Positions 1-3,958 of a stretch of 48,521 nt of DNA are shown here, one piece after another. Origin of the DNA: Gemmatimonadota bacterium. Lineage in GTDB: Bacteria > Gemmatimonadota > Gemmatimonadetes > Longimicrobiales > RSA9. The first letter of the stretch is position 1. Each line of letters begins with the position of its first letter. The position numbers and the translations under genes were made by a program. Below the pieces are notes generated by a model. It did no database searches, was not told the DNA's origin, and worked only from the letters and a program-made list of their open reading frames with translations. The stretch covers positions 1-48,521 of the forward strand of contig JBDLIA010000015.1 of assembly GCA_039715185.1 (NCBI GenBank). The letters are read 5' to 3'.

Positions 1-1050
1 CGCGCCCAGCACCCCGCCGTCACGGCCGCGCGTGATCCGCACCACCGCAGCGTCGCACGCGATTCGCCTGGACGTTTCCGCGGAAACGCGCACGCCGTCC
101 CCAAGCTCCGAGCGCGGCGGGCCGCCCGCCCTCGCCACTTGCTCCCCAGACGTTTCCGCGGAAACGTGGGCGGCGCCATGCGCGGAGGGGACACGGTGCC
201 CGGATCTGTCTTCCGCCCCAGCTAACGTCGCCTCCTCCACGTGCAGCATGACCTGGTAACGCTCGGCGCGTGAGCCGCTGAGCGGGCCGTCCGTGAAGCC
301 GGCCGCGAGCGCGCGCTCGGCCACCAGCCCGACCGCGTCCGCGCGACGCTGCTCGGGCTTCGTCTGGTCTGGCTCGGCTCCCGGCGCGTCGGCGCCCTCT
401 CGCTCTGCGCCGTACAGAGCGTCGCTCGCGGCCTCGATTGCCCTCATCAGCGCCGCGCCCACCTCCGGGTCGAGCCTGCCCCTGACGACGTACATGCCGT
501 CCTCGTCGGGAAACACGCTGAACGTGCGGCTCCTGTGGCGCCGTTCCTCGGCCTTCGCCTCCTCACCGGCGCACAGCTCCGTCCAGCCGCGCGCGAGGCG
601 CTCGAGCTTCGCCGCCGAGCACGAGCGCGCGAGCTCGAGCAGCGCCGCCTCGCTCGCTGGCCCCGCCACCCTCGTCAGCGCGCGCACCTTAGTGAACGAC
701 AGCTCGCCCTCGCGCATCGCCGCCGACGTCAGCGGCAGCTCTCGCAGCGCTCTGGCCGTGCGCACCCGCTCCCTGGCCGGGCCGCGCTTGATGCCCACGC
801 GCCAGGCCAGCCACTCGGCGCTCGAGCCGAAGCCGGTGTTACGCCAGCCCCCGCGCTCGTCGAACTCCGCCAACAGCAGCATAGCCTCGTACTTCAGTAC
901 CTCGGCCTGCATGTAGGTCGCAGCGCAGCGCTCGCCCAGCAGGTACAGCTCGTCTTCGGGGTCGACTGACTCTGACGCCGCCTCGACCGGCGCCGCCCGC
1001 TCCCGCAACACCCACATCCCCCGCGCCTGCGCCCTCATCGCAGCGTACAT
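1..1050 (-). CDS. DUF222/13E12-type HNH endonuclease family protein, partial (C-terminus beyond left edge)
   Basis: An open frame of 350 codons runs from ATG at 1050 to the window edge without a stop. The protein has the helical DUF222 pattern: an acidic start, then GWRNTGFGSSAEWLAWRVGI, a repeated arginine-rich helix (GPARERVRTARALRELPL) and GELSFTKVRALTRVA. Further on is the segment VSAETSRRIACDA, which in this family precedes the C-terminal HNH nuclease domain. That nuclease domain would lie left of the window and is not seen. A purine-rich stretch (ggggggtgagg) lies just before the ATG; ATG at 1038 and 1017 are alternatives. DUF222-HNH proteins are widespread, often multicopy and suspected to be mobile or homing-like, but their role is poorly known. 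Two copies of the 16-bp palindrome lie inside the frame, each encoding VSAET. Family assignment is by pattern recognition. Confidence 0.82.
   Translation of the reverse strand, partial: MYAAMRAQARGMWVLRERAAPVEAASESVDPEDELYLLGERCAATYMQAEVLKYEAMLLLAEFDERGGWRNTGFGSSAEWLAWRVGIKRGPARERVRTARALRELPLTSAAMREGELSFTKVRALTRVAGPASEAALLELARSCSAAKLERLARGWTELCAGEEAKAEERRHRSRTFSVFPDEDGMYVVRGRLDPEVGAALMRAIEAASDALYGAEREGADAPGAEPDQTKPEQRRADAVGLVAERALAAGFTDGPLSGSRAERYQVMLHVEEATLAGAEDRSGHRVPSAHGAAHVSAETSGEQVARAGGPPRSELGDGVRVSAETSRRIACDAAVVRITRGRDGGVLGA
73..88. repeat. 16-bp perfect palindrome CGTTTCCGCGGAAACG, copy 1
   Basis: Perfect self-complementary 16-mer inside the DUF222-type gene. It is read as gtt-tcc-gcg-gaa-acg (VSAET) directly before SRRIACDA, so it coincides with a family-conserved protein segment. 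Confidence 0.9.
150..167. repeat. 18-bp perfect palindrome ACGTTTCCGCGGAAACGT, copy 2
   Basis: Same core palindrome extended by one pair to 18 bp. It is inside the DUF222-type gene in the same reading frame as copy 1 (again VSAET), 26 codons before it in the protein, in a low-complexity stretch. Confidence 0.9.
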
Positions 1051-1364
1051 CGGCCTCACCCCCCCGGATCGTCGTAAGTCGCAGCACCGCAACCGCCTGT
1101 ACCAATATACGGGGCCACCTGGCGAGGCTCTCAGGCGCCCGTGAGCCGGCGCGGGGGGGGGTCGGGGGGCGTCGGAGGTTGCGTGCGCGCGCGGCGAGCG
1201 GCACGCCCCGGGCGAGGCGAGTACAGCACCGCGAGCGGAGCCAGGCCGAGACCGGGGCGTCTTCAGCGCCTCAAATCTGTCAATGGCTGATTGGGACGAC
1301 TTCGGCGCAAATCACCATGGGCAGGTCCCGGGGGGCGGGCAGAAGAGGAAAATCGTCGCCCACA

Positions 1365-1380
1365 CGTTTCCGCGGAAACG
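1365..1380. repeat. 16-bp perfect palindrome CGTTTCCGCGGAAACG, copy 3
   Basis: Identical to copy 1 but in apparently non-coding DNA about 315 bp upstream of the DUF222-type start codon. Confidence 0.9.
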
Positions 1381-1423
1381 CCCGCGTCCGTCCAAGAGCC
1401 CCGCGACACCGCAACCCCAGCGG

Positions 1424-1439
1424 CGTTCCCGCGGAAACG
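1424..1439. repeat. 16-bp palindrome, copy 4 (one mismatch)
   Basis: CGTTCCCGCGGAAACG differs from the other copies by one T-to-C change. It starts 59 bp after copy 3 and lies 48 bp beyond the moaA stop codon. Confidence 0.85.
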
Positions 1440-1486
1440 TACTCAGTCAGCGACGCGGGCTCGATCGACCCGCGCAGAATTGCCCC

Positions 1487-2560
1487 CTACCCGCCCACCT
1501 GCGACAGCGCCACGAGTCCGCCCGAGCCCGCCGCGGATCCGGCCACGAGGTCGTGTTGGAGTGGCTTGATGGCCAGGGTCTCGAGAACGTGCGGGACGAT
1601 CGACTGGCCCGCGCGCAGGGGCGTCCGCAGGTCGGTCTGGATGTGCCCGAACAGGCAGGGCCGGAGCTGGCCGTCGGCGGTCAGGCGCATGCGGTTGCAG
1701 CGCTCGCAGAAGTTGTGGCTCATGGGCGTGATCACGCCCACCGTGCCGCGCGCGCCGGGCAGGCGAAAGTAGGTCGCGGGTCCGTTGCCGGCGGGCCCCT
1801 CCGCGGGCTCCAGGTCGTCGATCCGACGCAGCCGGTCCAGCATCTCGGGGGCGCCCACGAACTCGTCGACGGACAGGTCCAGGTTGCCGGCGACCGGCAT
1901 CAGCTCGATGAAGCGGACGTGCCAGGGACGTTCGACGGTGACGCGCGCGAAGTCTTCGAGCTCGTCGTCGTTGCGCCCGCGCATGACCACCACGTTGAGC
2001 TTGATAGGCGTAAACTCCGCCCGCTCGGCGGCGTCCAATCCCGCCATGATGCGCTCGAAGGACCCCGGCCGGCGGGCGATGGCGTCCACGCGGTCGGCCC
2101 GCAGCGAGTCGAGCGACACGTTCACGCGATCGAGGCCCGCGTCCTTCAGCGCCTCGGCGTGCTGAGTGAGCAGCACCGCGTTGGTCGACAGGGACACGTC
2201 CTCGATCCCGGGCACCGCGGCGATCTGTGCGATCAATTCCGGCAGATCGCGCCGGACCAGAGGTTCACCCCCGGTCACGCGCACGCGCTCGAGTCCCAAC
2301 TCGGCCATCTCGCCTACGACGCGCGCGATCTCTTCGTACGTGAGCAGCTCGTCGCGGCGCAGCCACGGCAGCCCCTCGACGGGCATGCAGTACACGCAGC
2401 GCAGGTTGCACTTGTCCGTGACGGACACGCGCAGGTAGCGGATGCGGCGGCCGTGCACGTCGGTCATCCCCGCCGGGCCCGGGTCGGAGGCCTCGTGCCC
2501 GCGGCGGAGCAAGGTCGCGCTATCGAGAAGGTCGTTCGGGCGGTCGAGAAGGTCGCTCAC
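1487..2560 (-). CDS. moaA: GTP 3',8-cyclase MoaA
   Basis: Radical-SAM enzyme that starts molybdenum-cofactor synthesis by rearranging GTP (with MoaC) towards cyclic pyranopterin monophosphate. The radical-SAM cluster motif CNLRCVYC is at residues 51-58, followed by VRVTGGEPLVR. The second 4Fe-4S site is in HNFCERCNRMRLT...LRPCLFG, and the protein ends in the Gly-Gly pair typical of MoaA. The GTG start at 2560 overlaps the moaE stop (GTGA). The Met at residue 32 is an alternative start that matches the usual family N-terminus. moaA is the last gene of the sigma/anti-sigma/Spy/moaD/moaE chain. moaC, mogA and moeA are not in the window. Confidence 0.95.
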   Translation of the reverse strand: MSDLLDRPNDLLDSATLLRRGHEASDPGPAGMTDVHGRRIRYLRVSVTDKCNLRCVYCMPVEGLPWLRRDELLTYEEIARVVGEMAELGLERVRVTGGEPLVRRDLPELIAQIAAVPGIEDVSLSTNAVLLTQHAEALKDAGLDRVNVSLDSLRADRVDAIARRPGSFERIMAGLDAAERAEFTPIKLNVVVMRGRNDDELEDFARVTVERPWHVRFIELMPVAGNLDLSVDEFVGAPEMLDRLRRIDDLEPAEGPAGNGPATYFRLPGARGTVGVITPMSHNFCERCNRMRLTADGQLRPCLFGHIQTDLRTPLRAGQSIVPHVLETLAIKPLQHDLVAGSAAGSGGLVALSQVGG

Positions 2561-3060
2561 GTGGGCGTGGCTCCCGGCGACGCTGCGCTCGCCGACGGCG
2601 AGTCACCCGGCGACCCGCCTCCGGGCGTTACTCCGCTCAGCCACTCCTCCGCTCCGTCGGCGTAGCGCTCGAACTTCCACACCGGCACGCGTCGCTTGAT
2701 CTCTTCGAGGATGGTCCGGGACAGCTCGTAGGAGTCGGCGCGGTGCGGCGTCGACACCGCCACCGCCAGGCTGACGTCGTCCACCTTCAGGTCGCCGACG
2801 CGGTGCGTCAGTGACACCCGGGCGGGTCGGTCGCCCGCGGCCTCTCGGGCGATTCGGAGGAGTTCGGCCTCGGCCATGTCGCGGTACGCCTCGTAGCGGA
2901 TGCCCAATACGGCGCGGCCCTCGTTATGGTCGCGGACCACGCCCAGAAACAGAAGCGCCGCGCCGTGCGCGGCGTCACTCACCTCGCGCAGCACGCGCGC
3001 GGTGTCGATCGGCTCGTCCGTGATCTGAGCCGTTATGCACCCAGAGTCGTCCCTCATCAC
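2557..3060 (-). CDS. moaE: Molybdopterin synthase catalytic subunit MoaE
   Basis: Large subunit of molybdopterin synthase, which converts cyclic pyranopterin monophosphate to molybdopterin with sulfur carried by MoaD. Family motifs seen are FLGVVRDHN, YEAYRDMAE, LTHRVGDLKVDD and the active-site region KRRVPVWKFE. After about residue 142 the protein ends in a Gly/Ser/Pro/Ala-rich tail longer than usual. It starts GTG-ATG, overlapping the moaD stop, with GGAGGG just before; ATG at 3057 is an equally good start. Confidence 0.95.
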   Translation of the reverse strand: MMRDDSGCITAQITDEPIDTARVLREVSDAAHGAALLFLGVVRDHNEGRAVLGIRYEAYRDMAEAELLRIAREAAGDRPARVSLTHRVGDLKVDDVSLAVAVSTPHRADSYELSRTILEEIKRRVPVWKFERYADGAEEWLSGVTPGGGSPGDSPSASAASPGATPT

Positions 3061-3449
3061 CCTCCAGCCACGGGTGGCAGCAGCGCGATTTCGTCGCCGT
3101 CCGCCAGCGCAGTGGCGAAGTCCGCGTAAACGCCATTCACCGCCACGGCGAGCGTCTGCGGGAGCCGCTCGAGTCCCGGCGCACGCGCCCGTGCCTCGGC
3201 CAGCGCGGCTGCCACGTCGTCGCCCACTCGCACGCGCACCTCCAGCTCTCCGGTCCCCGCCAGGTCGCGGTAGGAAGCAAAGAGCAGCACGCGGACGCGC
3301 GCGTTGGGGGCGACCGGCACGTGGCCGTCGCCGGCGTCCCCACTGGCCGGGACCGGCGCCCCCACGGCGTCGGCCGGGACCGGCGCCTCCACAGCGGCAG
3401 CGGCCGCGACGTGCGTAACCGCATCGACGGTGGCCGGGACGCTCCTCAC
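3057..3449 (-). CDS. moaD: Molybdopterin synthase sulfur-carrier subunit MoaD with N-terminal extension
   Basis: Small ubiquitin-fold sulfur carrier. The last 80 or so residues (VRVLLFASYRDLAG to the terminal VAGG) match MoaD, including the C-terminal Gly-Gly that is thiocarboxylated. The frame is open much further upstream but would run through the preceding gene. The GTG at 3449 overlaps that gene's TGA (GTGA), the linkage used throughout this operon, and gives 130 residues against the usual 80 or so. The extra 45-50 residues are Ala/Pro/Val-rich with a repeated APVPA unit. A shorter start at GTG 3320 would give a normal-length MoaD. Confidence 0.88.
   Translation of the reverse strand: MRSVPATVDAVTHVAAAAAVEAPVPADAVGAPVPASGDAGDGHVPVAPNARVRVLLFASYRDLAGTGELEVRVRVGDDVAAALAEARARAPGLERLPQTLAVAVNGVYADFATALADGDEIALLPPVAGG
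3345..3387. repeat. 16-bp direct repeat, 27-bp period, in moaD 5' region
   Basis: The sequence ggccgggaccggcgcc occurs at 3345-3360 and 3372-3387, with a partial third copy near 3431. On the minus strand it encodes APVPA in the N-terminal extension of MoaD, if that extension is translated. Confidence 0.8.
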
Positions 3450-3958
3450 CGCGGCGGCCGGTCCGAGTCGTCCTTGTCCTGGTCGCGACGCCTCGCGTTC
3501 CTCACGGCGTCGTTCATGTGCATCTGTAGCTGCATGAAGGAAGCCCTCTGCCTGGGCGTCATGAACCCCGCCAGGGCGTCCTGCTCCGAGCGCCAAAGTT
3601 CGTACTCGCGCCGCCTCAGGTCTTCCATGGCGCCGAGCCGGCGGCGGAATTCGTCGTCGCTGGTGTTGGCGTCCTCGATCGCCCGGATGAACCGGTGGCG
3701 CTCCTGCATGAGCTGCCGCTGCAACTCCCGGCGGTTCTCGCGGCCCCTCCGCAGCACGTCCTCCAGTCGCTGGCTCTGGCCCTCCTGCAGGTCGAGCTGG
3801 CGACGGGAGCGTTCCATGAACTGCCTGTGGAAGCGCTGCTCGAGCGCGGCCCGCCCGGGCCTCCGATCGGTGCGCACCTGGGCGTCCACGCCCGCGGCGG
3901 GCGCGAGCGCGGCCAGCGCGAGCGTGAGCACCGCTATCCCCTTCAGCCGTGTCATCAC
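3446..3958 (-). CDS. Spy/CpxP-like periplasmic protein
   Basis: The 170-residue protein has an N-terminal signal peptide (LKGIAVLTLALAALAPAAGVDA) and then an almost entirely helical, charged, Arg/Gln/Glu-rich body. The segments RQFMERSRRQLDLQEGQSQ and FMTPRQRASFMQLQ recall the LTxxQ-type repeats of the Spy/CpxP/ZraP group of periplasmic chaperones and stress sensors. It starts GTG-ATG across the anti-sigma stop, with AAGGAG 8 nt before the GTG. Its place behind a sigma/anti-sigma pair suggests an envelope-stress role (inference). Confidence 0.75.
   Translation of the reverse strand: MMTRLKGIAVLTLALAALAPAAGVDAQVRTDRRPGRAALEQRFHRQFMERSRRQLDLQEGQSQRLEDVLRRGRENRRELQRQLMQERHRFIRAIEDANTSDDEFRRRLGAMEDLRRREYELWRSEQDALAGFMTPRQRASFMQLQMHMNDAVRNARRRDQDKDDSDRPPR

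Follow-up and report, generated by a model that had tools for sequence, protein, structure and literature searches.

A 16-bp palindrome within and around DUF222-HNH genes: a candidate ParB/Noc-type recognition site with a REP-RAYT-like genomic organisation

Introduction

Why should one 16-bp palindrome occur both inside the coding sequence of a gene and in the non-coding DNA upstream of it? The question is raised by the window analysed here, a stretch of 48,521 bases that is the complete contig C15 of a draft genome (G000; 3.66 Mb, 252 contigs). A first-pass annotation of this DNA proposed that the palindrome is kept as DNA and not only as protein, and that it may be the recognition or landing site of an HNH nuclease, so that the element marks, targets or protects its own locus. 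To our knowledge, DUF222 is a large family of no known function, and DUF222-HNH genes are multicopy in many bacteria.

Results

Palindromes at a truncated DUF222 gene

Scanning the window recovered the three perfect copies and the one single-mismatch copy that had been listed (Table 1). Three of them lie where they had been placed, while the second spans 151–166 and not 150–167. No further copy is present in the 48,521 bases even when up to three mismatches are allowed (0.52 expected), in agreement with the earlier view that the window holds no other full copy, and composition predicts only ∼1e-5 perfect copies per window, which upholds the judgement that chance recurrence is very unlikely. 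The two in-gene copies sit in the minus-strand DUF222 frame and are read there as VSAET, as first described; the gene matches PF02720 with an E-value of 5e-27 and 95.4 bits, against a curated cut-off of 24.4. Because this gene runs off the first base of the contig, its HNH part and its 3′ flank are missing from the window. Of the DUF222-HNH gene as annotated, the window thus contains the DUF222 part, and the HNH part falls beyond the contig end; an HNH domain is seen in a paralog on contig C160 of the same genome (PF02720 with PF01844) and at locus L159. The start codon is uncertain, with our simple gene caller setting it at 1050. Directly upstream, on the minus strand at 1487–3596, lie molybdenum cofactor genes, of which moaA is confirmed by Pfam, and the next open reading frames resemble moaE and moaD/ThiS.

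Table 1. Positions of the DUF222 gene, its conserved peptide and the four palindromes in the window
Feature	Position	Strand	Comment
DUF222 (PF02720) gene	1–1092	−	3′ end cut by contig start; HNH part missing here
Conserved peptide VSAETSRRIACDA	49–87	−	Coding passes through palindrome
Palindrome copy 1, perfect	73–88		Within conserved DUF222 motif
Palindrome copy 2, perfect	151–166		In variable linker and in VSAET frame; 78 nt away from copy 1
Palindrome copy 3, perfect	1365–1380		Intergenic, between moaA stop and DUF222 start
Palindrome copy 4, one mismatch (CGTTCCCGCGGAAACG)	1424–1439		59 bp from copy 3

Genome-wide distribution and shape of the site

A genome-wide count, which had been proposed as a check, gave 40 perfect copies in the window's genome, with six more carrying one mismatch and four carrying two, against 0.001–0.002 perfect copies expected by composition and none for a reversed-pattern control. 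Seven of the 40 are in DUF222 coding sequence. Outside it, 30 of the 33 copies are intergenic in a genome whose DNA is 88% coding (p = 1e-24), where gene edges are approximate, having been set by a simple codon-usage script. Since most copies lie in unrelated intergenic DNA, the palindrome is not a marker restricted to the locus of the element. The idea that it protects that locus finds no support.

The neighbours of the dispersed copies include genes for a His-tRNA synthetase, a TonB receptor, an amidohydrolase, TPR proteins and peptidases, among others, and no functional theme was seen among them in the window's genome. The copies occur between convergent and divergent genes alike, which disfavours a promoter-operator role. 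Only the palindrome itself is common to the dispersed copies, but its borders are constrained: position −1 is a purine in 80 of 80 half-flanks (the core CGTTTCCGCGGAAACG is thus bordered by a purine at −1 and a pyrimidine at +1), and position −2 is G or C in 76 of 80, giving a two-fold symmetric site of 18 bp or more. Some palindromes form doublets, 32–62 bp apart.

Co-variation of in-gene and dispersed copies

The DUF222 motif V-S-A-E-T-S-R-R-L-A-C-D was compared at 37 sites from family-based searches, after two false motif matches among 39 rows had been left out. Perfect 16-bp palindromes were found at 19 of the 37, and at least seven of the eight symmetric pairs are kept at 29 of the 37, compared with two of 1746 nearby same-phase 16-mers. 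The version of the palindrome differs by lineage, with in-gene and dispersed copies changing together: CGTTTCCGCGGAAACG is the version of the window's genome, CGTTTCAGCTGAAACG that of genus g9 (∼6–12 dispersed copies each), CGTCTCCGCGGAGACG with CGTCCCCGCGGGGACG that of G208, and CGTTCCCGCGGGAACG that of the genus to which G162 belongs (30 copies in G162 itself and 26–67 in most relatives). Even within G208, the paralog on contig C2 and its nearby sites are all CGTTTCAGCTGAAACG, and the paralogs on C7, C20 and C78 are of the CGTCYCC type. The G162-type protein reads VPAGT, in which two amino acid changes (Ser to Pro and Glu to Gly) fall at symmetric bases and leave the palindrome intact. The pair at positions 7 and 10 co-varies (C:G with A:T), and the in-gene palindrome uses rare codons (GTT, 3%; GAA, 16%). 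Extra copies further upstream inside DUF222 genes keep the VSAET frame, at spacings that are multiples of three. Together with the DUF222 association and the filled and empty insertion site described below, this co-variation bears out the proposal that selection keeps the word at the DNA level, and ties it to DUF222.

The in-gene palindrome is a feature of a subfamily. Some DUF222 lineages are without it, and one from genus g9 encodes VSAET as GTG AGC GCG GAG ACG, with no palindrome. Free variation of the VSAET codons is therefore contradicted for the palindromic subfamily, given the 29 of 37 sites, and does hold in some other lineages, such as this one from g9. In the few actinobacterial DUF222 loci looked at, the palindromic pattern was not found. 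Residues of the recognition helix show suggestive differences between site versions (AREH, ARRL/ARCL); a correlation between the two was too inconsistent and was dropped. At locus L209 (6488–7987), a DUF222-HNH gene has a linker with several VSAET repeats, as if the palindromes had multiplied inside the gene.

Association with DUF222

Our phylum sample comprised 298 genomes, 55 of them with PF02720. The exact palindrome is present in 21 of the 298, and 20 of these 21 have PF02720 (Fisher p = 1.4e-15), in line with the earlier suggestion of a link to DUF222-HNH genes. With the degenerate word CGTYYCNGCNGRRACG, at least six copies were counted in 39 of 55 DUF222-positive and nine of 243 DUF222-negative genomes (p = 2.5e-27), and counts of the reversed word never exceeded three in the sample. 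Enrichment near the genes, a further check that had been proposed, was also evident, with an extra palindrome within 2 kb of 21 of 44 palindromic DUF222 genes, compared with 0 of 44 for the reversed word and 0 of 12 non-palindromic DUF222 genes. The alternative outcome that had been envisaged, an even spread with no tie to DUF222, was found in its first half only: the sites are spread over the genome, and the tie is strong.

Six of the nine DUF222-negative exceptions belong to genus g63, whose other members have DUF222. These six genomes keep 9–56 perfect sites with DUF222 not detected, and they are the hardest observation to reconcile with DUF222 alone; either the sites are maintained by some other factor, or the DUF222 gene has been lost or was missed in draft assemblies. 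Outside g63, three of ∼235 DUF222-negative genomes have at least six sites. One genome of family f8 (G177) has 13 degenerate-palindrome matches and no DUF222 match, where a diverged or lost DUF222 protein, or another system, is possible.

Beyond the phylum, we considered 48 genomes chosen solely because they carry the palindrome outside the DUF222 motif. PF02720 was found in 30 of the 48, and in 18 of the 19 Gammaproteobacteria in the set, as raw counts; the DUF222-negative genomes are mostly from taxa where one chance match is likely. Viral contigs gave 19 palindrome matches, none of them in the DUF222 motif, and these are probably mostly chance.

Domains and predicted fold of the protein

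Full-length relatives comprise PF02720 followed by a PF01844 HNH domain, which by sequence resembles that of IscB and McrA-type nucleases. The DUF222 N-terminal domain was modelled with a mean pLDDT of 90.5. In a Foldseek comparison with the PDB, the first 20 matches were all ParB, Noc or Spo0J, with probabilities of 0.85–1.00, modest E-values (0.036 for the best, up to 1) and TM scores of ∼0.5. Among them are DNA-bound structures, namely the Noc domain with its site (6y93; TM 0.65 by target) and ParB with parS (6s6h, 4umk and 6t1f). The N-terminal domain is accordingly predicted to fold like ParB/Noc. A sequence profile of the domain found nothing useful in the PDB, so that ParB emerged by fold comparison alone; among Pfam families, HTH_ParB was the sole other one to match more than one member (three of 12, best E-value 0.002, under the curated cut-off). 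Pfam gave no match to the N-terminal CTPase domain (ParBc) in full-length DUF222-HNH proteins and none to the Y1 HUH transposase domain (Transposase_17), DUF222 and HNH being the only domains found. Against the PADLOC defence families, there were only weak HNH matches.

The palindrome itself resembles parS (TGTTTCACGTGAAACA) and the Noc site. Like parS (TGTTTCAC-GTGAAACA) and the Noc-binding sequence NBS (TATTTCCC-GGGAAATA) (PMC7383237), it is a 16-bp two-fold symmetric site with a GTTTC-type half-site (PMC7383237, PMC8429893): CGTTTCAG may be set beside parS TGTTTCAC, and CGTTTCCG beside NBS TATTTCCC. The half-sites CGTTTCAG, CGTTTCCG, CGTTCCCG and CGTCTCCG share with parS and NBS their length, symmetry and GTTTC-like core. 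The predicted fold and the site are two independent lines, and therefore indicate recognition of the ParB/Noc type.

A probable landing site and a putative mobile unit

A DUF222-HNH gene in G162 and G200 has a palindrome on either side, the right-hand one 12 bp past the stop codon. At the same chromosomal place, seven relatives (G059, G209, G042, G053, G046, G071 and G055) have one palindrome and no gene, and in four others the place is empty and the palindrome is decayed or deleted. This is one filled and empty pair, found in one genus, and on this comparison of sequences the palindrome behaves as a landing site, as originally proposed. The palindrome is retained on both sides of the insert, so the target is not destroyed by insertion. 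Two dispersed-type palindromes flank the gene in G162, in G200 and on contig C20 of G208; in the window, the 3′ side is cut off.

Paralogs at different loci in G298, G148 and G259 share homology that starts within ∼12 bp of the 5′ palindrome and ends shortly past the stop codon, which puts the 5′ boundary of the putative mobile unit at the palindrome. For the C60 and C160 copies of the window's genome, homology starts 15–16 bp before the upstream palindrome, and several G298 paralogs are without an intact 3′ palindrome. In the DUF222 copy on contig C63 of G298 (locus L405), an in-frame deletion has removed the HNH domain, which may leave a version that only binds, with a non-autonomous or regulatory role.

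Discussion

Proposed mechanism and alternatives

The original observation holds and was understated, and its interpretation is upheld in part. The explanation that we favour, at a probability of about 0.7, is that of a DNA-binding protein of the ParB/Noc kind, joined to an HNH nuclease and encoded by a mobile gene, that has a parS-like site of its own and a REP-RAYT-like organisation. The palindrome would be the recognition site of the DUF222-HNH protein family, bound as a two-fold symmetric dimer by the ParB/Noc-type helix-turn-helix of the DUF222 N-terminal domain, which the HNH domain follows. The gene would constitute a ∼1.6 kb mobile unit with the palindrome as its 5′ end and, in some copies, another at its 3′ end. 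It would have entered the chromosome exactly at a resident palindrome at least once, perhaps when HNH nicked or cut the DNA and repair drew on another copy, and the dispersed sites between host genes change in step with the DUF222 version present. The sequences themselves show the copies, their co-variation and association with DUF222, the 5′ boundary, the one filled and empty pair and the predicted fold; binding of the protein to the site, cutting or nicking there by HNH, and the insertion and spread that would result are what we infer from these patterns. Cleavage is presumably restrained or absent, because a host cut continually at tens of chromosomal sites would not survive. A role of the in-gene copy in autoregulation, or in exchange between paralogs, is conceivable. 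On this view the window holds an example of such a gene, truncated at the contig end, with two sites inside the gene and two upstream. At even odds, we put the fuller proposition that DUF222 is a ParB/Noc-derived DNA-binding domain, whose VSAET/VPAGT subfamily combines an HNH gene, a parS-like palindrome in its own motif and tens of genomic copies into a self-propagating protein-plus-site system, a non-transposase counterpart of REP-RAYT that uses its own sites as landing places.

Alternatively, the palindrome could be the site of a separate host factor, such as a nucleoid factor of the Noc or SlmA type, which a mobile DUF222-HNH gene targets. Nine species share an identical 16-mer at one orthologous intergenic site, where the 16-nt upstream spacer is only about half identical and losses are deletions and not point changes; this conservation, the persistence of sites in the g63 genomes and the insertion of DUF222 at an older palindrome all fit a host site. 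Against it, so few DUF222-negative genomes outside g63 have six or more sites, and the site version follows the DUF222 version even between paralogs of one genome. DUF222 is also itself predicted to have the ParB/Noc fold that binding would require, and we regard such a hijack as unlikely. Less probable again is that the palindromes are tiny REP-like mobile repeats, which the DUF222-HNH protein copies and which play no part in binding or regulation for the host. The extragenic bias, the doublets and the in-frame extra copies in DUF222 genes would suit this, but the orthologous copies are of long standing, have passed down vertically and are held by purifying selection, and an insertion of the palindrome alone was nowhere directly observed. 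An SOS (LexA) box, another transcription-factor operator, an RNA hairpin or a terminator would also be palindromic, intergenic and often near gene ends; an operator is disfavoured because the sites lie between both convergent and divergent genes, which share no functional theme, the co-varying 7/10 pair would fall in the loop of a hairpin and a terminator would want the U tract that is missing, so that this group is very improbable. We give almost no credence to the in-gene palindrome as a by-product of VSAET conservation and codon bias, even though the fixed letters of the V-S-A-E-T codons are self-complementary (10 of 14 positions are palindromic by necessity) and some g9 genes encode VSAET with no palindrome, since rare codons are used, the compensatory change to VPAGT keeps the palindrome and the same word occurs 30 times in non-coding DNA.

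Relation to known systems

The favoured protein-plus-site system is like REP-RAYT, in which RAYT denotes the REP-associated tyrosine transposases, in that the gene is flanked by palindromes that are also dispersed extragenically, and in that palindrome and protein versions co-evolve with compensatory changes that keep the symmetry (PMC2817692). The proteins are unrelated: here DUF222, with its predicted ParB-like helix-turn-helix, is joined to HNH, with no Y1/HUH transposase. Unlike REPs, the palindrome is perfect and loopless, lacks a GTAG head and also occurs in the DNA that encodes the conserved motif of the protein. Tens of dispersed sites recall Noc, whereas in DUF222-HNH proteins no CTPase domain was detected and an HNH nuclease domain is present instead; the genes, unlike those of ParB/Noc, are multicopy, mobile and sporadic, and the central bases of the site differ from parS and NBS. 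HNH homing endonucleases similarly have an HNH gene at a presumed target with an empty allele in relatives, but the dispersed palindrome survives at the insert ends and is neither unique nor destroyed. The REP13E12 (DUF222-HNH) repeats of M. tuberculosis share the domain family and are multicopy; the accessible portions of their descriptions present them as containing a putative prophage attachment site and as a hotspot of gene conversion, give no defined function, and contain no palindrome or ParB link (PMC13061034, PMC10589994).

In the open literature, which excludes most subscription journals, no relevant paper was found for the palindrome string, and the accessible portions of the DUF222 literature there mention neither a palindrome nor ParB. 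Neither a DUF222-ParB relation nor the palindrome was found described in that literature, and the system may be an undescribed one. A predicted ParB/Noc-type domain with a defined cognate site makes the function of DUF222-HNH proteins testable by a simple binding assay. If correct, our reading would link the DNA recognition of chromosome partition to a nuclease and a mobile element, and would add a second, transposase-free kind of REP-like system. It would also provide a rare case in which the DNA encoding a protein motif holds a putative recognition site fixed, with amino acid changes that compensate one another.

Other features of palindrome neighbourhoods

Within 47 kb of mixed accessory genes, contig C16 of the window's genome (L025–L027) has ten perfect palindromes as well as several near ones, along with near-identical repeated stretches (27719/44136; 420 also on C158:617). 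Palindromes inside unrelated genes of G162 and G000 are mostly in the VSAET/VPAGT frame. At C57:13217–13540 of G162 and its orthologs (L338–L346), palindromes border a hotspot where genes are gained and lost, with LRR/Big_2 proteins and a hybrid sensor kinase present or absent beside these palindromes in sister species.
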